From: Chloroflexota bacterium
Lineage (GTDB): Bacteria > Chloroflexota > UBA6077 > CF-72
Assembly (NCBI GenBank): GCA_019247135.1
Contig: JAFAPL010000449.1
Span: 1-6,540, forward strand
Length of the DNA: 6,540 nucleotides
Reading direction: 5' to 3'
Made by a program: the position numbers and the translations under genes. Every line of letters starts with the position of its first letter. Within the stretch, counting starts at the first letter, position 1. Positions 1 to 6,540 of this stretch are shown one piece after another. The notes under the pieces are model-generated. The model was not told the origin of the DNA and did no database searches. It saw nothing but the letters and a program-made list of their open reading frames with translations.

Positions 1-419
1 ATGCGTGGTGTGGCATCGAACTGCTGTTGCGCCGTTCTGGGCAAGTTGATACCCACCTGATGAAAGACGAGTTGGACCAGCCCAGAGCAGTCGAGTCCGC
101 GGCGCGGGTCCGTGCCGCCGAAGACGTACGGAATACCAAGATATCGATGCGCGATGTCGACAATGAGGGCCTGTCCGCCGTCTGGCGAGCGCGGAGCTAC
201 GGGCACCGGTTTCGGCGGCTGCGCCGATTGTTCCGCGGGTGTACTGGTCGTTGGCGGAGGCGCGTTGGGTGCGCCGCCCAAGAGGGTTGCCACCAGAACG
301 AGCGGCAGAAACAGCGCCACCAGCAGCACCACCAGCGCGGCACCGATCAGGCTTGTGAGCATGCTCCAGATCTCTTGCGCACCCGCGTCGAGCACGATTC
401 GCAGAATCACCTGCTGCAT
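1..419 (-). CDS. Membrane-anchored NlpC/P60 family peptidoglycan hydrolase (3' end outside the window)
   Basis: Probable cell-wall endopeptidase that opens peptidoglycan for the transfer apparatus. The 139 visible residues show a short amphipathic start, one long hydrophobic membrane segment (about residues 21-47), a Pro/Thr/Ala linker (about 48-80), then the beginning of an NlpC/P60 domain. That domain reads IVDIAHRYLGIPYVFGG (86-102), followed by GLDCSGLVQ with the nucleophile Cys111, and LPRTAQQQF (127-134 region), the usual substrate-groove motif. The catalytic His and third polar residue lie beyond position 1. The ATG at 419-417 follows the TrbL-like gene's stop by 3 bases and has a strong Shine-Dalgarno GGGAGGT at 435-429, 9 bases upstream. 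The predicted topology puts the enzyme outside the membrane. NlpC/P60 or CHAP hydrolases are regular members of Gram-positive conjugation operons (VirB1-like role). The family call is near certain; the role in conjugation is inferred from neighbours. Confidence 0.9.
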   Translation of the reverse strand, partial: MQQVILRIVLDAGAQEIWSMLTSLIGAALVVLLVALFLPLVLVATLLGGAPNAPPPTTSTPAEQSAQPPKPVPVAPRSPDGGQALIVDIAHRYLGIPYVFGGTDPRRGLDCSGLVQLVFHQVGINLPRTAQQQFDATPR

Positions 420-422
420 CGG

Positions 423-1505
423 CTAGCGACCTCCCAGTGCTCGACGCCCCGCCTGAGCGCCAGAAGATGCTCCAGCGGATGACAGTCCCGAACGACTCTC
501 GCGCGTGTTGTCCAGGCTGCGCCGCATGGAGCTCGATCTTGCCCCGCCACTCATCGGGTGCCAGGGCATCAACCGCGGAATCTGACGCGCGAGCTGCAGG
601 GTCGCCACGCCGAGCAGGAGCGTGACGAGCCAGACCCGCATGTCGGATCCTCTGTCCAACCCCGCCGCGGTTGGGAGTGCCGATGGCAAGTTGTCGATCA
701 GATTTGTCCCGAGCTGGAGGACCAGCACCTGTACGAACTGCACGAACACCGCGGAGAAGAACGTGCTGAACCACAGGCGAGCCCAGCCATACGTCTGCGG
801 CACGATCCAGCACAGGAGCGCCACCGGCGCGAGGATGATGAGCGCATCCACCAGTGCGAGCCGCATCAACATCTGTACGAACAGCAGCAGGGCCATCATC
901 AGGTAGATCACGAGGGCAATCAGGTTGATCAGCACCGCGGCCGCATTCGGTTGTGAAGCGGCGCTCCAGGCCGGAATGGAGCCTGGTCCCAGTGCCTGAC
1001 ACAGCGCGTTGTTCACGTCGATCACGAAGCGCGTCCAGTCCAGGCTCGTATTCACGAGCAGGGCGCCGACAAGGACGCGCGGTACGAGCTCGAGCACGCC
1101 GTGATAGGGCGCCCGAATATGCGGGCTCGTGATCAGGTTGATTCCGCCGATGACGGTCATCACGGCGAGAGCGCCGTTGGCGACGGCACGTAAACCACCG
1201 GACAGATTGCGGACGACCTGACTGTTGTATGAAAGCCCGGGTGGAGTCTGATTGATGATGTTGCCGTTGCCGAGCAGCCAGTCCATAAATCCAACTGCTT
1301 GCGCCGTCGTGTTGCGCCCGACATTGACCAGCAGCGCGTTGAAGGCGGTGGTGAGCCATTTGCCCGGGTCGGACAGCAGGTCAGTGACCCCGCCCGGAGA
1401 AGGTGGGTCCGATATCGCCTGCGCCGCGACAGGCGCCGCCATGATCGCCAACGCAACTACAACCACACCGCAGGCAGCCGTGACGCGGATCAGTCGACTG
1501 CTCAT
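423..1505 (-). CDS. TrbL/VirB6-like conjugal transfer membrane protein
   Basis: A 360-residue polytopic membrane protein, probably the inner-membrane channel component of a type IV secretion (conjugation) system. It begins with a signal-peptide-like segment (residues 1-30, hydrophobic core 11-23, ending APVAAQA), then a roughly 70-residue extracytoplasmic stretch. Hydrophobic segments follow at about 104-125, 138-155, 188-213, 217-236, 245-266 and 290-306. The stretch RLALVDALIILAPVALLCW (215-233) followed by PQTYGWARLW and VFVQFVQVLVLQLG resembles the conserved core of TrbL/VirB6-like proteins as I know the family; no search was run. The tail (about 307-360) is hydrophilic, rich in Ser, Arg and Gly, and probably cytoplasmic. 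The start ATG (1505-1503) overlaps the TGA of the propeller gene as ATGA and has GAGGGA (1516-1511) 5 bases upstream. The gene is flanked by a PEGA-propeller protein and an NlpC/P60 hydrolase, a typical transfer-module context. The exact subfamily (TrbL, VirB6 or PrgH-like) is unresolved. Confidence 0.8.
   Translation of the reverse strand: MSSRLIRVTAACGVVVVALAIMAAPVAAQAISDPPSPGGVTDLLSDPGKWLTTAFNALLVNVGRNTTAQAVGFMDWLLGNGNIINQTPPGLSYNSQVVRNLSGGLRAVANGALAVMTVIGGINLITSPHIRAPYHGVLELVPRVLVGALLVNTSLDWTRFVIDVNNALCQALGPGSIPAWSAASQPNAAAVLINLIALVIYLMMALLLFVQMLMRLALVDALIILAPVALLCWIVPQTYGWARLWFSTFFSAVFVQFVQVLVLQLGTNLIDNLPSALPTAAGLDRGSDMRVWLVTLLLGVATLQLARQIPRLMPWHPMSGGARSSSMRRSLDNTRESRSGLSSAGASSGAQAGRRALGGR
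429..435 (-). promoter_or_regulatory. Ribosome binding site of the NlpC/P60 gene
   Basis: The minus strand reads GGGAGGT, 9 bases before the ATG at 419. It lies inside the last codons of the TrbL-like gene, which supports coupled translation and fixes the start of the hydrolase. Confidence 0.75.
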
Positions 1506-2968
1506 GGGGCTCCCTCAGACGTGTCGTCTGCTCCCAGCAGGACGGACCAGTACTCGATCGAACCCAGGCTCGTTCGATTCGCGACAACGGCGCGTGAGTG
1601 CGCCGAGTCCCACTCAGCCGCGAAATTCCGCGTTGCGTTGAGCGGCACGTCGAGTATTCGGTCCAGGCGATTGCCGGAACTCAGAACCTCCACTGCGAGC
1701 TTGGCGTCGTCCCCGGATCCAGCACGGCCGAGGCCGACGATCCGTCCGTCAGGCGCCCAACCGGGCACGGCGAACTGCGCGGCTCCGACCGGCGTGGGCA
1801 GGGACTCCGACACGCTTGCTTCGAACACCACATGTACTGGTGTGGTCTGAAACCAGGTCGACGGCGCCGGCGGCGCGCGGAATTGCTCAGGCGCGCTGAA
1901 CAGAAGGTGTTGACTATCGGACGCCCAGCCAACCGGCGCGTACGGCAGAGGCGGTCCACTCGAACCCTCCAGGTCTGCCAGATAGCGGAAGCTGCCGTCG
2001 GCGCTCATCAGACACAGCGCGTTCAACGCGCCCGCGTGGACCACAAACGCGACATGCTGACCGTCCGGGCTCCAGCTTTCTGAGCCGGGCACGACCACGC
2101 TGGGCAGGCTGCGCAACTCGCGCGCAGCGTCAGCGGTATGGTCCACCCACCACAGCCGCGTCAACGGTGCGGGATCAGCGGTCGACGCCCTTCGGCCAGT
2201 GACGACCAGCAGAGCCTCAGCGCGTGGACTCCAGCTGGCGTCCAGTACTACTTCACCTGGCGGAGGTCGCCAGCCCGCGTACGTGCCAGACGATGCCGTC
2301 GATTGCAACCACAGCACGGCGCCGGATGTGGCCTGTTGGTCCGCGGTCAGCGCTCGCGGGCCGATGTCACCGCCGACGTATGCCGCGTACGTACCATCCT
2401 TCGCCACGGCCACGCGGGTTGCGGTGATCTCCGTCAAGATCGGCTCGATGGCGCCGGTTGATGGGTCGAGCCGCCAGGTCTCAAGCTGCCCAGGCGCGAG
2501 CATCGCCGTCAGCGCAAGCTCGCCGTCATCCAGCAGACGAACGTCATCGAGCGTCGCTCCAGGAAGCGCCGGCCGAATACGCGCGACGACGGGCTGAGCG
2601 CGGAACAGATTCGCGTCCAGGCTTGCGCCGGGCATGCCGACGTCTACTTCGTAGTTACCGTCGTGTGCGCCGGGTGCGCGGATCGCCGCAGAGTGGTGAC
2701 CGGGTGCTAGCGAGAGCTCGAGGGGCGTACGGCCGCGTTCGCGGTTGTCAACCCAGACCCGCGCGTTGGACGGGTGCGATGCAATGCGGAGGGGGACGCC
2801 TGGCGCGCTGGCGAGCGCGTCCGCCCGCCCAAGCTCCGCCAGGCCCGCCGCAATCCCGACCGCCAGCAGGACGAGGACGCAGACCACCCACACGCGTCGC
2901 AGGCGAAGCCACGCCCGCAGCTCTGACCGGCTCGGCGGTTCGAATACGACTTCGATGGGGAACTCCAC
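1502..2968 (-). CDS. Membrane-anchored PEGA domain / PD40 beta-propeller protein
   Basis: A 488-residue protein of unknown exact function that probably sits on the outer face of the membrane. A basic 26-residue N-terminus is followed by one membrane segment (about 26-45, VWVVCVLVLLAVGIAAGLA). A PEGA-type domain (about 58-98) reads SHPSNARVWVDNRERGRTP, the hallmark 'P-x-x-A-x-V-x-V-D' pattern. From about 135 to the end there are repeated TolB/PD40-like blades: SWSPRAEALLVV (245-256), SWSPDGQHVAFV (298-309), GWASDSQHLLFS (347-358) and GWAPDGRIVGLG (403-414). PEGA domains are associated with surface layers, and PD40 propellers act as protein-protein platforms. Here it is probably an envelope scaffold of the transfer machine (inference). 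It is the first gene of a three-gene operon and overlaps the TrbL-like gene by 4 bases. The start is GTG with GGAGG only 4 bases upstream; no better in-frame start was seen. The upstream region carries the 3-copy repeat array. Confidence 0.8.
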   Translation of the reverse strand: MEFPIEVVFEPPSRSELRAWLRLRRVWVVCVLVLLAVGIAAGLAELGRADALASAPGVPLRIASHPSNARVWVDNRERGRTPLELSLAPGHHSAAIRAPGAHDGNYEVDVGMPGASLDANLFRAQPVVARIRPALPGATLDDVRLLDDGELALTAMLAPGQLETWRLDPSTGAIEPILTEITATRVAVAKDGTYAAYVGGDIGPRALTADQQATSGAVLWLQSTASSGTYAGWRPPPGEVVLDASWSPRAEALLVVTGRRASTADPAPLTRLWWVDHTADAARELRSLPSVVVPGSESWSPDGQHVAFVVHAGALNALCLMSADGSFRYLADLEGSSGPPLPYAPVGWASDSQHLLFSAPEQFRAPPAPSTWFQTTPVHVVFEASVSESLPTPVGAAQFAVPGWAPDGRIVGLGRAGSGDDAKLAVEVLSSGNRLDRILDVPLNATRNFAAEWDSAHSRAVVANRTSLGSIEYWSVLLGADDTSEGAP

Positions 2969-2972
2969 AGCA

Positions 2973-2977
2973 CCTCC
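2973..2977 (-). promoter_or_regulatory. Ribosome binding site deciding a GTG start
   Basis: GGAGG on the minus strand ends 4 bases before the GTG at 2968-2966. The spacing is shorter than the usual 5-9, but no ATG, GTG or TTG in the same frame nearby fits better, and the encoded N-terminus runs straight into a membrane anchor. I take this as the start with moderate confidence. Confidence 0.5.
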
Positions 2978-3006
2978 GCTGGCGATCGGGATGGGACCAG
3001 CATGCC

Positions 3007-3122
3007 GAGCGGGGCGTCACGCGGAGCGTCACGTGGAGAGCAAAAAGCGTCACGTAGAGCGTCATGTGGACGTCACAATTTCCAGTTTTCGGAGCGAAAG
3101 CGTCACGCAGAGCGTCACGTGG
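3007..3122 (-). repeat. Array of three imperfect 30-32 bp direct repeats, each with two GCGTCAC heptamers
   Basis: On the plus strand the units lie at 3007-3036, 3038-3069 and 3092-3122. Each is built the same way: GAGC, then 3-5 purines (GGG, AAAAA, GAAA), heptamer GCGTCAC, linker GYRGA, heptamer GCGTCAY, then GTGG. The heptamers start at 3014/3026, 3047/3059 and 3100/3112, exactly 12 bp apart within every unit. A seventh, weaker copy, ACGTCAC, sits at 3070-3076, 11 bp after its neighbour. Start-to-start steps are 12, 21, 12, 11, 30 and 12, roughly multiples of one DNA turn, so the sites would face similar sides of the helix. The array looks like operator sites for a dimeric or tandem-binding regulator. 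SARP proteins (known to use heptamers about 11 bp apart) are natural candidates because one is encoded at 4082-6540. Replication iterons are the main alternative. Confidence 0.85.
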
Positions 3123-3140
3123 CGCTTTTTCGGTCGGCGG

Positions 3141-3967
3141 CTAACCGAACGCAAAGTTGAAGATCGACCAAATGCGTCGTGGTCGCCACGCCAGTGGCTG
3201 GCCGCGCCGCATGCGTGGCAGTCGACGCCTCTCGGCGAAGCCGCGAGCGGCGAGGACCCTCGCCGCGGCATCGTTAGAGGTTGGAACGATGAGCTGCACC
3301 TCGGGCGAGCCTCCGTGCGCGATCAGCACGTCGAGCAGCCGCATCCCGGTTTGCTCGTCGTCGTCATCGCGAGTGACTGCCGGGCCGAGTCCCCACGGCG
3401 TCCGCAAGGCGTACCCGCGAATGCACACTCCATCTTCCAGGACCCAGCCGGTCGCGAGGGCGCGCAGCGCATGCGCGCGGTCCTCATCAGTGGCCGCGCG
3501 ATCGATGGCGTAGACGCGCGGCAGGTCCCGCATCTTCAATGGCCGTATTCGAGGATGGATCGGTTGTGGCTGATCCACCGGACCGCGCCACACGGAGTAG
3601 CCACCGCCGGTGTCCTCGACGAAGTCAAAGCGATCGTAAATGGGTTTGCCGAGCTCCGTGGCGGCGAGCAGCACGGTCGTGCAGCCCAGGCGGTCCAGTG
3701 CAGCGAGGCTGGTCCGAGTGAGCTCCGCGCCCAGGCGCGCGACGAACACAAGCCCGAGCCATCCGACGGAGCCACTGTGCATGGTGACGCTCGTTCCGAC
3801 GATCTCGCCGCGATACTCGGCGACGACGCCTTCGCAGGCATCGTGACGCGTGTAAAAATCCAGCGATTGGCGACGATCGCCCCAGCCGCCTCCAGAATGG
3901 CCGTGCTGGCGCTGGCGACGTCCTCACGTAACATCGGTCGAATCTGGACGGCGGCAAGATCAGTCAA
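3141..3967 (-). pseudogene. Two-domain GNAT acetyltransferase, frameshifted and probably inactive
   Basis: Remnant or miscalled copy of a GNAT family N-acetyltransferase (acetyl-CoA dependent, substrate unknown). The best start is TTG 3967-3965, with GAGGA (3981-3977) 9 bases upstream. This frame gives VQIRPMLREDVASASTAI and so on up to a GGGG run at 3883-3880. The homology-like reading then continues in another frame: GDRRQSLDFYTRHDACEG, VVAEYRGEIVGTSVTMHSG, VGWLGLVFVA, and onward. One additional G would restore a single reading frame. The acetyl-CoA pyrophosphate loop (normally R/Q-x-x-G-x-G/A after 'FV') is missing: the protein goes directly from FVA to RLGAELTR near 3740-3735, as if about 7-8 residues were deleted. 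The second half, IRPLKMRDLPRVYAIDRAA to the end IWSIFNFAFG, is a well-preserved C-terminal GNAT-like (Acetyltransf_18 type) domain. The intact downstream part could start at ATG 3782 (213 residues) but would lack the first strands. Either decay or a sequencing indel plus a divergent loop could explain this. Confidence 0.75.
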
Positions 3968-4081
3968 CGCAGGCAATCCTCGCCATCGGGGGACGGGCTC
4001 GGCGATGCCGCGGTTGTGGACCGTAGCCAACCTGGACGCAACATTCTGCGCGTGGCCCGTAGCCGCAAACTGCTGTGCAGG
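3968..4081 (-). other. Short intergenic gap with a small direct repeat
   Basis: 114 bases between the regulator's TGA and the acetyltransferase start. On the plus strand GTGGACCGTAGCC (4016-4028) and GTGGCCCGTAGCC (4052-4064) are 13-mers with one mismatch, 36 bp apart. No clear terminator is present. A CTGC-ACA-GCAG mini-hairpin followed by three T is too weak to call. Confidence 0.4.
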
Positions 4082-6540
4082 TCAGACCGCGGCTGGCTGG
4101 CGCGCGCTTCCGTCCAGCTCCTTCAACAGCCGCTCGAACTCCAGCGCGGTCTCGCGAGTGGGCTCGTCCATACCGGCTACTACTTTACCTTCAGTGTCCG
4201 AGGCGAGCTGGCGGAGCTTGGAGCGCATGCGCCGCTCTTCGCGCACGAGCGCGACACGGTCGCCCCGCCCCGCGTGGATGCGGAAAAGGGCCAACCACGC
4301 CCGCTCATCGCCGGGGTCCATTTCCGTCAGGTCGCGGTACGCGTCGATGGCGGGTGGGAGCAGATCGTTCGCGGCGTACAGGTCTGCCAAAGACAACGTC
4401 GCGGACTGATACAAGCGCCGAAAGTGCTCGCGCAACGTGACGCCGCTGCCGTCCCGGTCTTCTGCCCAGGCGTAGCGTCGTGCTTCCGGACCTTCGAGCA
4501 AATCGCCGGTGTAGAGCGCACGTGCGCGCTCCAGCCGTTCGATCATGAGCGTCGGCGGGGCTGGGGCGGTGCGCTTGGACGGGACGAGCTCCAGGAACTC
4601 CTGCGCGTCGCTGTAGATGACAGCTGGGTCGAGCCGCAGGCGGGCAGATCCAAAGATGCCGTCGCCCTGTTGAGCATCCTTGTCCTCTCCCAGCAGCTTG
4701 CGCAAACGGTAGCGCAGCTGGCGGATGCGGTGCGCGGGCTTATCGACATCGCTATCTGGCCAGAGCGCGGCGACGAGCTGGTCACGCGCAACGCCATCGA
4801 TCGGCTGACAGGCGAGAAAGAGCAGAAACTCCCAGGGCTTGACGTCCCCGCGCGCGCGCCCGGGCCAGACCTGTTGGCCGTTGTAGAGGACGCGCGGGCC
4901 GCCGAAGCAGAGCACCTGGAGCGGTGGACCGCCGGCTCCGGTTTGCTCAGCGGGATCAATGCTGGACTCCGGTAGCTGCGGCGCACCGCGCTCTGGCTCA
5001 GCTTGCGATTCCGAGGGCGCAGCATCGATCGTCTGCTCGGCAATCGGACCACCAGGTTCGACCGGCGCGGGAGACGGGGCGGGAGGCGCAGCGGAGGCGT
5101 AGGCCGTCCGCATGACGCGCACGAGTCGCTCGAGATGCTCAGCGGTGACCTGGAATCCAAACAGTTCGACCGGTTCACGGTTGTCAATGCGCAGCAACAG
5201 GCGGCCACCTCCGCCCAGGAACGCCGCGTCGGCGACGCCCAACATTCCGACGCTGAGCGCTTCGTCCTCCATGTGCAGCACCATACGGGTCGCGAACTGC
5301 GTCACAGCCGGCAACTGGACGGCTTCGGTCGGCATACTCGTTGCGGCAATCACGCGCACGCCAAGGGCGGCCGCGTGAGGCATCAATAGCTCCAGTTCGG
5401 CGCTACGCTCACGCAACTGAGTGAGCTCGGCCAGCACGACGACGAGCTCCGGGTAGCCTCCAGTCTCGGTTGCACGATGGTCCAGCTCGTGTCGCAGGTC
5501 CGCGAGCAGACGGTCCAGCTCGGTCGTGTTGGACGGGTCGAGCGTCCGCTGCAGGTGCGGCATCGCGCCGAGCGGCGCCGGCAACGCACGCGGCTCGGCC
5601 ACCATCCACATCCGCAGCTGGTCTGGTGAGCAACGCGCGGCGAGCGTAGCGAGAAGACTGGTGAGAATGACGTCCGCGCCGTGACCAGGATGACTGGCGA
5701 TCAGCAAGTTGCCGAGCGCCGGCCACGCTCCCGACAGGATCTGGTGATCGGGCAACGCGCCAAGCGGAACGCACAAGTCGGCCGCGGAGCGCTCGGCTTC
5801 GGCGGTGGACAGAAGTCGACCTTTGCGGGTTCGAACGAGTCGCAGCAGGACGTCTTCGTCGCCGGTCACGTACGCCTCCGCCTGCGAATCTAGGCGTGCG
5901 CCAATTTCGGGCGCGAGATCGACGAGCACTGCCTGTTCAGATACGCCACCGGAAAGCGTCAGCGTCGTCGAACTTCTGCCGTGGCGCACGGCGACGACTC
6001 CAACCTGCTGCAGGTTGTACTCATGCAGGAACGCACGGACCTGGCTCACAACCGCCGCGACCGGGTCCGATGCGCCGGGCTGCAATCCGCGCGTGAAGGC
6101 GTGAGTCAGCTCGGCGGCGGCGTAGCCACCGGTGACCACGACGTCCGACTCCGGTTCGCGGCTGAGTGGCCGCAAGTGCTGACGACGTCGCACGACGAAC
6201 GCTCTGGCTCCAGCGGCGATCGCCAGCGCGCCCGCCGCACCCGCGATGGGTACCACCGGCGGAGTCTCGATCTCGGGCTGCCCGACCGGAGGTTCGGGCA
6301 CACCCGTTGCTGCGGGCGTTGGGTCCGAGGCGCCGGAGCGGTTCAGCTTCGGGCTCCTGCGGCGGGACGATGGCGCTGACGGTGGGAGACGCGGCCGCGG
6401 TGAGATCGGGGTCTGCAACTCCCGGTTCTTCGGCCGAGGAGCGGAGAGCAACCGTCGTGTCGGGCGATGGTTGCGGAGCGTGGGCCAGCAGCGGCGACCC
6501 TGCGCTCCGGTCTGCCGGGTCGGCATCGGCATCCTGCGAT
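4082..6540 (-). CDS. Membrane-tethered SARP/BTAD transcriptional regulator fused to a degenerate FtsK-like domain (5' end outside or frameshifted)
   Basis: Probable membrane-bound one-component regulator. Numbered from ATG 6532 (816 residues), it has a Pro-rich linker (to about 92), one membrane segment (about 93-114) followed by RRR, and an FtsK/SpoIIIE-like domain (about 250-475). That domain shows VPLGALPD, then NLLIASHPGHGADVILTSLL where FtsK has LLIAGxTGSGKS: Gly283 and Gly285 remain but the Lys is Ala286 and the Ser is Asp287. Walker B is ELVVVLAEL, with Asp replaced by Ala368 and Glu369 kept, so ATP hydrolysis is unlikely. After a second acidic Pro linker (480-535) comes an OmpR/SARP winged helix (about 537-638, ending in the signature LWPDSDVDKPAHRIRQLRYRLRKLLG region), then a BTAD TPR-like domain (about 641-800). 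SARPs activate transcription from heptamer repeats. The positive-inside rule places the DNA-binding end in the cytoplasm. The ATG at 6532 is doubtful because another frame from 6539 looks like the genuine linker. Confidence 0.85.
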   Translation of the reverse strand, partial: RRMPMPTRQTGAQGRRCWPTLRNHRPTRRLLSAPRPKNRELQTPISPRPRLPPSAPSSRRRSPKLNRSGASDPTPAATGVPEPPVGQPEIETPPVVPIAGAAGALAIAAGARAFVVRRRQHLRPLSREPESDVVVTGGYAAAELTHAFTRGLQPGASDPVAAVVSQVRAFLHEYNLQQVGVVAVRHGRSSTTLTLSGGVSEQAVLVDLAPEIGARLDSQAEAYVTGDEDVLLRLVRTRKGRLLSTAEAERSAADLCVPLGALPDHQILSGAWPALGNLLIASHPGHGADVILTSLLATLAARCSPDQLRMWMVAEPRALPAPLGAMPHLQRTLDPSNTTELDRLLADLRHELDHRATETGGYPELVVVLAELTQLRERSAELELLMPHAAALGVRVIAATSMPTEAVQLPAVTQFATRMVLHMEDEALSVGMLGVADAAFLGGGGRLLLRIDNREPVELFGFQVTAEHLERLVRVMRTAYASAAPPAPSPAPVEPGGPIAEQTIDAAPSESQAEPERGAPQLPESSIDPAEQTGAGGPPLQVLCFGGPRVLYNGQQVWPGRARGDVKPWEFLLFLACQPIDGVARDQLVAALWPDSDVDKPAHRIRQLRYRLRKLLGEDKDAQQGDGIFGSARLRLDPAVIYSDAQEFLELVPSKRTAPAPPTLMIERLERARALYTGDLLEGPEARRYAWAEDRDGSGVTLREHFRRLYQSATLSLADLYAANDLLPPAIDAYRDLTEMDPGDERAWLALFRIHAGRGDRVALVREERRMRSKLRQLASDTEGKVVAGMDEPTRETALEFERLLKELDGSARQPAAV

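Follow-up and report, generated by a model that had tools for sequence, protein, structure and literature searches.

SARPs are best known as activators of antibiotic gene clusters. In a 6,540-nucleotide stretch of DNA from an uncultured Chloroflexota lineage (the window), a gene encoding a SARP domain lies near an array of short direct repeats, which precedes an operon for PEGA, TrbL and NlpC proteins. The locus raises the question of whether these repeats form a regulatory element and, if so, which genes it serves and which protein reads it.

The repeat array in the window

All genes of the window are on the − strand, and the array region (2969–3140) lies between a GNAT fragment and the PEGA gene (Table 1). 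The heptamer GCGTCAY is present on the + strand at 3014, 3026, 3047, 3059, 3100 and 3112; on the strand of the genes it reads RTGACGC. A sequence-only reading had described three paired units with a lone heptamer in the spacer. The pairs at 12 bp were recovered and the lone copy is present in degenerate form (ACGTCAC), but the units are unevenly spaced, since the pair starts are 33 and 53 bp apart. The combination (GTGACGT or GTGACAT)-N4-ATGACGC, as around window 3059–3076, was also found in loci L044, L053, L001 and L084. The array directly precedes the operon, as had been claimed (45 nt from the array end to the PEGA GTG), and the SARP-encoding gene ends about 1 kb from it, again in agreement with that reading.

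Table 1. Features of the window, with positions counted from its first nucleotide.
Feature	Position	Strand	Basis or remark
NlpC/P60 protein, cut by window end	3..419	−	PF00877
TrbL/VirB6-like protein	423..1505	−	PF19597, PF04610
PEGA-domain protein, GTG start, heads downstream operon	1502..2968	−	PF08308; homologues
−10-like hexamer CATGCT, 9 nt past proximal heptamer	2999..3004	−	column consensus nAnnnT, 21 promoters
Promoter-proximal heptamer GTGACGC (position 0)	3014..3020	−	no variation among 21 core promoters, owing to how sites were chosen
Second heptamer GTGACGC, 12 bp upstream of proximal copy	3026..3032	−	
Third heptamer GTGACGC with TTTTT behind it, another 21 bp upstream	3047..3053	−	slot shared with most core promoters
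Distal heptamer ATGACGC	3059..3065	−	
Degenerate heptamer GTGACGT (+ strand ACGTCAC), 11 bp from the ATGACGC copy	3070..3076	−	
Distal heptamer GTGACGC	3100..3106	−	
Distal heptamer GTGACGC	3112..3118	−	
GNAT acetyltransferase part between regulator and array	3141..3782	−	PF18014
Candidate regulator: FtsK/EccC-like + SARP (OmpR-like wHTH + BTAD) fusion	4082..6532	−	
SARP domain used for structure model	4082..4960	−	pLDDT 90.7
Presumed DNA-recognition helix HRIRQLRYRLR	4700..4732	−	recognition role by analogy

In 1000 dinucleotide shuffles of the window, a maximum of 3 heptamer copies per 116 bp was reached on one strand, compared with 6 in the native sequence. A fairer, post-hoc test considered any exact 7-mer repeated within 116 bp; here the observed number was 5, and 11 of 500 shuffles gave at least 5, so the array is no more than moderately convincing from the window alone. 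What proves the repeats is their conservation in other genomes. The heptamer was matched 12 times in the window against 4.55 expected, with the array accounting for the excess; the scattered single GCGTCAC copies outside it look like chance, which bears out the claim that the word is clustered only in the array.

A promoter/terminator consensus scan of the array region and an Rfam search with the window and 20 array loci gave no match, and no relative was found when viral contigs were searched with the PEGA alignment. A + strand terminator at 3097–3130 was considered and dropped because no + gene ends at that place. The GNAT gene (3141–4030) is split by an apparent frameshift, with the C-terminal and N-terminal parts in different frames; the split appears to be an assembly error or a pseudogene. 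The gene is missing in genome G002, where the SARP gene abuts the array.

Distribution of the arrays and the genes behind them

Genome contigs were scanned with 22 aligned PEGA homologues, yielding three loci. L001 (PEGA 45% identical) has RTGACGC at 3398, 3421, 3440, 3452 and 3464, the last one 49 nt before the PEGA start; L002 has arrays ahead of its PEGA gene and ahead of tadB; L003 (PEGA 29% identical) has no array ahead of PEGA. Loss of the array upstream of orthologous operons had been named as evidence against a regulatory role. The array is present ahead of the PEGA orthologues of G001 and G002, and absent ahead of more distant homologues (G003, G020, G030 and a second copy in G002); in G004 and G016 direct repeats do precede PEGA, but they are built from another word.

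The exact pair GTGACGC-N5-GTGACGC occurs 15 times in G001, 13 times in G002 and 0 times in G003, and the reversed pattern 0 times. Among 29 genomes of the class, the RTGACGC form of the pair was counted 16 times in G001, 13 in G002 and 45 in G017, with 1–2 copies in ten others and 0 in sixteen; the reversed control gave 0 in the former three and 1 each in G009, G022 and G027. Exact 12-bp pairs in 400 Chloroflexota genomes were again most abundant in G017 (39), G001 (15) and G002 (13), followed by G284 (5) and G246 (4), with at most 3 in the rest. Counts up to about 5 are noise, because the reversed control itself reaches 5 in one genome (G196). With one mismatch allowed, the pair was found 38, 50 and 76 times in G001, G002 and G017 (reversed 10, 4 and 0, respectively). 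A profile of 20 core promoters (see below), with at most 150 candidates scored per genome, detected 30, 39 and 56 sites in these genomes at E ≤ 0.05 and 0–2 sites in each of the other 26; it recovered the G001 dprA site, which was absent from its input (E 0.003), and missed that of G002.

Direct repeats adjoining T4SS-like genes could be iterons, i.e., Rep-protein sites of an origin, or the oriT of a transfer element. Rather than a single locus beside a Rep gene there are dozens of sites per genome, mostly ahead of genes and accompanied by a −10-like element, and no Rep gene was seen among the array-side genes run through Pfam. The likelihood of such an origin is next to nil, and the warning in the sequence-only reading that the repeats might be origin sites did not materialize. 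The iteron/oriT reading and a transposon reading were both dropped because the promoter placement is genome-wide.

From the flanks of the sites, 63 clusters were collected, selected for containing the 12-bp step; 60 were distinct once overlaps had been removed. The genes first behind each array were called by Pfam. Fifteen clusters, including that of the window, precede tad, com, PEGA or TrbL genes, 9 precede other conserved elements (lgt, DUF2851, L19, an unknown protein and one leader), 21 run into G-rich leaders and 15 fall in none of these groups. Seven genes carry the array in each of G001, G002 and G017 (identities between genomes refer to the aligned parts): tadB/T2SSF (73–77% identical), the comEC operon (leader protein 46–51%), comM (79% between G001 and G002; the G017 contig-end fragment aligned over 30–33 residues), lgt (57–66%), DUF2851 (66–71%), ribosomal protein L19 (rpL19; 80–90%) and an uncharacterised protein with the sequence WRRRAALG (77–81%). 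The exact RTGACGC-N5-GTGACGC stands in 16 of these 21 orthologous promoters; the other five have a degenerate copy (G002 lgt, DUF2851 (GAGACGC) and the WRRRAALG-protein gene; G001 L19; G017 comM (GTGACGG)). The Competence domain was found behind the comEC-operon array in G001 and G002, and the G017 contig ends before it; Pfam recognised no comEA among the genes beside comEC.

PEGA follows an array in the window, G001 and G002. TrbL is directly behind an array in G001 (by Pfam) and in G017, where the protein has no Pfam match and is 55% identical to the window TrbL over 221 residues; G017 also has CpaB behind an array. The dprA gene, looked for afterwards, has in G001 and G002 a single heptamer that is followed after 8 nt by the word GCATAGT or GCACATT; in G017 it has no box. 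The short form of cinA was first seen with a pair in G017 and then in G002 (C218), where TAAGCT comes 8 nt after a heptamer; none of the remaining six of the 8 CinA loci in the three genomes, both of G001 among them, has a heptamer upstream of the gene. The comM heptamers of G001 and G002 are at matching offsets (−121, −100 and −88 from the domain start). The region upstream of comM was opened in 21 of the 29 genomes: the pair was present in none of the 17 readable relatives, G023 had one distant single copy, and these regions held no other convincing repeat array (the G008 comM came without upstream sequence, and the G021 place did not read as ComM).

A shared site is thus found ahead of comEC, comM and pilus genes, and of dprA and cinA in two of the three genomes each, so the array appears to mark a regulon of natural-transformation and Tad-pilus/T4SS-like genes, although rpL19 and lgt, which also carry it, are not competence genes. 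The proposed link to a transfer operon holds for the PEGA/TrbL operon itself, but was too narrow: the set is genome-wide and includes comEC, comM, dprA, cinA and the Tad-pilus genes. The arrays might instead belong to a dispersed repeat family, either a structural repeat or a mobile promoter cassette, that no regulator of its own controls, a reading favoured by two kinds of array that share a G-rich leader beyond the heptamers, mostly ahead of unrelated genes. The orthologous placement, with proteins 46–90% identical and mainly the heptamers, their phase and the −10 kept, makes it very unlikely.

Promoter layout

In 60 of the 63 clusters the 12-bp step is the last, promoter-proximal one, trivially so in two-copy clusters; L063 and the two L071 clusters depart from this. 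Columns were numbered from the last heptamer in a hand-picked set of 21 core promoters that leaves out the G-rich kinds. RTGACGC-TTTTT is found at −33 in most rows and GTGACGC at −12 and 0, and a hexamer starting 9 nt past the last heptamer has A at its second position in 16 of 21 and T at its sixth in 16 of 21. At single sites the spacing between the last heptamer and the −10-like word is 8–10 nt. The distances of distal heptamers from the second heptamer cluster at multiples of 10.5 bp (n = 87 from 25 arrays, i.e., the 21 core promoters and four arrays with G-rich leaders; vector length R = 0.81, 0 of 20000 uniform draws). The distal steps are mostly 21 bp, with 11, 19, 23, 32 and 41 bp also occurring. 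The direct repeats of the paired-unit design described earlier are therefore real, but the conserved unit is not three pairs: it consists of a single 12-bp pair at the promoter-proximal end, with the distal heptamers following at helical-turn intervals.

By the usual numbering, a −10 hexamer spans −12 to −7, which places the proximal pair at about −40 and −28, over the −35 region. The start codon is 6–14 nt past the hexamer in the comEC operon, comM and dprA of G001 and G002 and in cinA of G002 and G017 (21 nt in the G017 comEC operon). Because the start codons stand so close behind the hexamer, these mRNAs may be leaderless or nearly so. Overall, the comparison of sequences establishes a conserved layout (distal heptamers, RTGACGC, N5, GTGACGC, about 9 nt, nAnnnT), with the heptamers mostly on one helix face. 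In three genomes it precedes orthologous tad and com genes, and in these genomes and the window it precedes PEGA/TrbL genes.

According to PMC10936776 and PMC5930380, the direct repeats in the SARP promoters of Streptomyces (AfsR/afsS, PimR/pimM) are of heptamer type and share one helix face; about 8 bp separate the 3′ repeat from the −10, and the upstream repeat lies over the −35 region. The arrays described here share the helix-face repeats (R = 0.81), the distance to the −10 (9 nt to the predicted nAnnnT in the 21 core promoters) and the position of the upstream repeat; they differ in the heptamer itself, in a proximal step of 12 bp rather than exactly 11 or 22, and in often having 5–8 copies. 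As judged from these features, the geometry nearly matches that of SARP-activated promoters.

The fixed distance to a −10-like hexamer would also suit RTGACGC as part of an alternative sigma-factor promoter, with the proximal copy serving as −35 and no separate activator. However, with its centre near −25 the proximal copy would lie too close to serve as a −35, a second copy stands at a fixed 12 bp, and multiple phased distal copies reach about 140 bp upstream; such a promoter is very unlikely indeed.

The candidate regulator

The SARP fusion encoded beside the array has an OmpR-like DNA-binding domain followed by BTAD. Its structure model matched EmbR and AfsR, and the structure-match rows (VIA) below the SARPs were mostly TPR proteins. 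Many full-length relatives of the fusion also carry LysM, and membrane helices are predicted in the LysM/FtsK-like/SARP protein of the cluster. The closest orthologues of the regulator are in exactly the three array genomes, and in G002 the SARP gene lies between two arrays. The idea of SARP-type repeats ahead of the operon thus gained from the conservation, the −10-like hexamer at 9 nt, the phased heptamers and the SARP fold of the protein encoded nearby; the step of 12 bp remains at odds with it. The FtsK/EccC-like domain lacks the Walker A lysine (GHGADVI, residues about 283–289) and may be an inactive ATPase for that reason. At the N-terminal end of the fusion (window 6300–6540) a frame change is possible, with an open frame at 6021–6539 in another frame.

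We infer that the LysM/FtsK-like/SARP protein binds the heptamers. The array is probably a promoter that depends on an activator, the SARP of the cluster, and serves a regulon for DNA uptake (natural competence) and Tad-pilus/T4SS-like functions. The membrane-anchored protein would occupy the heptamers head to tail through its SARP domain, two promoter-proximal protomers covering the −35 region (about −40 and −28) and the distal heptamers loading further protomers. RNA polymerase would then be recruited to a promoter without a good −35, similar to the sigma adaptation by AfsR. Since the SARP gene sits in an array-headed gene run in G002 and G017, the SARP would also raise its own expression. 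The trigger, more speculatively, could be a cell-envelope or pilus signal sensed via LysM.

The same regulon and promoter could instead be served by an OmpR/PhoB-type response regulator encoded elsewhere, the cluster SARP acting on something else. Repeats arranged head to tail at intervals of roughly one turn are also targets of OmpR-like winged helices, the T-run past the third heptamer would suit a wing, and the A3 profile also matches the response regulator SaeR (E 0.0018). On the other hand, the SARP is the sole DNA-binding regulator among the annotated genes of the array-flanked G002 cluster, the distance to the −10 fits SARP sites, and relatives with a different SARP helix carry a different box at corresponding places. 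We regard a separate response regulator as unlikely.

The evidence from the relatives is as follows. The presumed recognition helix HR.RQ[LM]R[YF]RLR is shared by the window, G001, G002 and G017, and is different in G030, G029, G020, G016, G004 and G023; 69 of 85 SARP homologues fit the HR.RQ type (one with T for Q) and 16 did not match the regular expression. G016 has ATGTAGC-N4-ATGTAAC-N4-GTGTAGC, 10 nt and TAGACT directly ahead of a tad operon coding for T2SSF and TadE proteins and for a 243-aa protein without assignment, and the weaker words TGTTGCC, TGTAGCC and TGTAGGC at 22-bp steps ahead of PEGA. G004 has ATGTAGC-N4-ATGTCGC-N4-GTGTCGC, 10 nt and GAGACT ahead of PEGA. The G016 tad array and the G004 array have 11-bp steps, unlike the proximal step of the window lineage, so in these two relatives SARP-like arrays of the classical 11-bp kind, built from another word, stand at corresponding positions in the cluster. 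The cluster stretches of G020, G023, G029 and G030 showed no ATGTAGC-type array. Across the 29 genomes, RTGTARC-N4-RTGTARC was counted 3 times each in G016 (two at the tad array, one outside) and G012 and once in G004, and the remaining 26 have no copy; the reversed control gave a single match in G012 and another in G022. The other-word arrays of the two relatives are nearly confined to the cluster, whereas in the window lineage word and step differ and the sites are genome-wide. Box and helix thus seem to change together, a correlation drawn from few lineages that are not phylogenetically independent.

A broader proposal, for and against which we see even chances, is that natural competence in Chloroflexota has the SARP as its membrane-embedded master regulator: a fusion in a Tad-pilus and VirB4/VirB6-like cluster would sense the envelope or pilus and turn on the uptake machine and the cytoplasmic com genes, helix and box having changed together while the regulon extended beyond the cluster into the genome at large. 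The genome-wide com and tad set differs from the antibiotic cluster of Streptomyces SARP systems, and so does the regulator, which has predicted membrane helices and joins its SARP to LysM and FtsK-like domains.

The nearest physiological parallel is Micrococcus luteus, an Actinobacterium and in that respect unlike the Chloroflexota case. According to PMC4322843 and PMC8467076, its transformation needs Tad clusters together with comEA/comEC, and an FtsK/SpoIIIE gene beside tad-1 affects transformability; in the latter source mutation of that gene left the com promoter not repressed, and competence control is termed little known. The proposed Chloroflexota regulon likewise joins Tad and com genes, with an FtsK-like domain encoded in the cluster. 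BTAD is mentioned in neither of the two papers, nor SARP in PMC8467076. ToxR, CadC and TfoS-like proteins are described in PMC10269533 as one-component membrane-embedded DNA-binding regulators, TfoS being listed for natural competence. The candidate SARP fusion is likewise a one-component, predicted membrane-embedded regulator, but its DNA-binding part is a C-terminal SARP (wHTH + BTAD) behind LysM and FtsK-like domains. Other papers deal with the Tad pilus and DNA uptake (PMC8513845), a Deinococcus SARP-type response regulator induced by irradiation, with natural transformation solely in the reference list (PMC3564903), and a BTAD protein controlling nitrate respiration (PMC5748679). Among the matches listed from titles and abstract starts of openly licensed PMC papers, none concerned a SARP governing competence or an RTGACGC-array motif.

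For an uncultured Chloroflexota lineage, the DNA signature thus delimits which genes a DNA-uptake programme would comprise and points to a regulator that can be put to the test; it also connects a T4SS-like operon (PEGA, TrbL, NlpC, TraG-type ATPase) with DNA uptake. If the proposal is true, it would define a class of membrane-bound competence regulators, make competence predictable from MAGs and provide a case of regulator/box co-change.

Arrays with G-rich leaders and minor observations

The 21 of 60 distinct clusters that run into G-rich leaders have mostly unrelated genes behind them, for instance those for NrdR, Ddl, PrmA and a LivH-type permease. The 15 clusters without a clear link include five inside genes (one in G017, four from low-count relatives). 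Clusters of both groups may represent additional parts of the regulon, a promoter family of their own or mobile cassettes, and some may be due to chance. Two leader families were distinguished, TTACGCTGAGC...GGCGGGCGGGCGGCGGCG (L045, L046, L055, L061, L068, L069, L072, L078, L082, L088) and GAGGGYGGNGGGAGGGGGGYGGCGG (L048, L049, L050, L059, L076, L077, L079, L081, L085, L086; GTGACGG as last heptamer in several), both mostly ahead of unrelated housekeeping genes or no clear gene.

A different leader follows arrays in the three genomes (L196, from about 2974, −; L208, from about 4526, +; L084, from about 2013, cut short by the contig). Its DNA is conserved in pieces, with hairpin-like stretches, AAAGGAGG motifs and small ORFs behind, and it is possibly a regulated non-coding RNA. 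Rfam gave nothing over threshold for this leader (for L208, two chance miRNA matches below the gathering score). A small pilin encoded behind these arrays was considered and dropped, because no reading frame is conserved and the one ORF run through Pfam, that of L208, has no match.

The WRRRAALG-protein promoters (L053, L197 with two sites, L075) share a leader with CACCTTTCCAAC, an anti-Shine-Dalgarno-like word. In G017, L077 (1574–1706) has twelve RTGACGC in perfect 12-bp tandem ahead of a membrane protein that is Wzz-like by eye and has no Pfam match, and L201 (2688–2745) has a degenerate array between the tRNA-Arg and tRNA-His genes.
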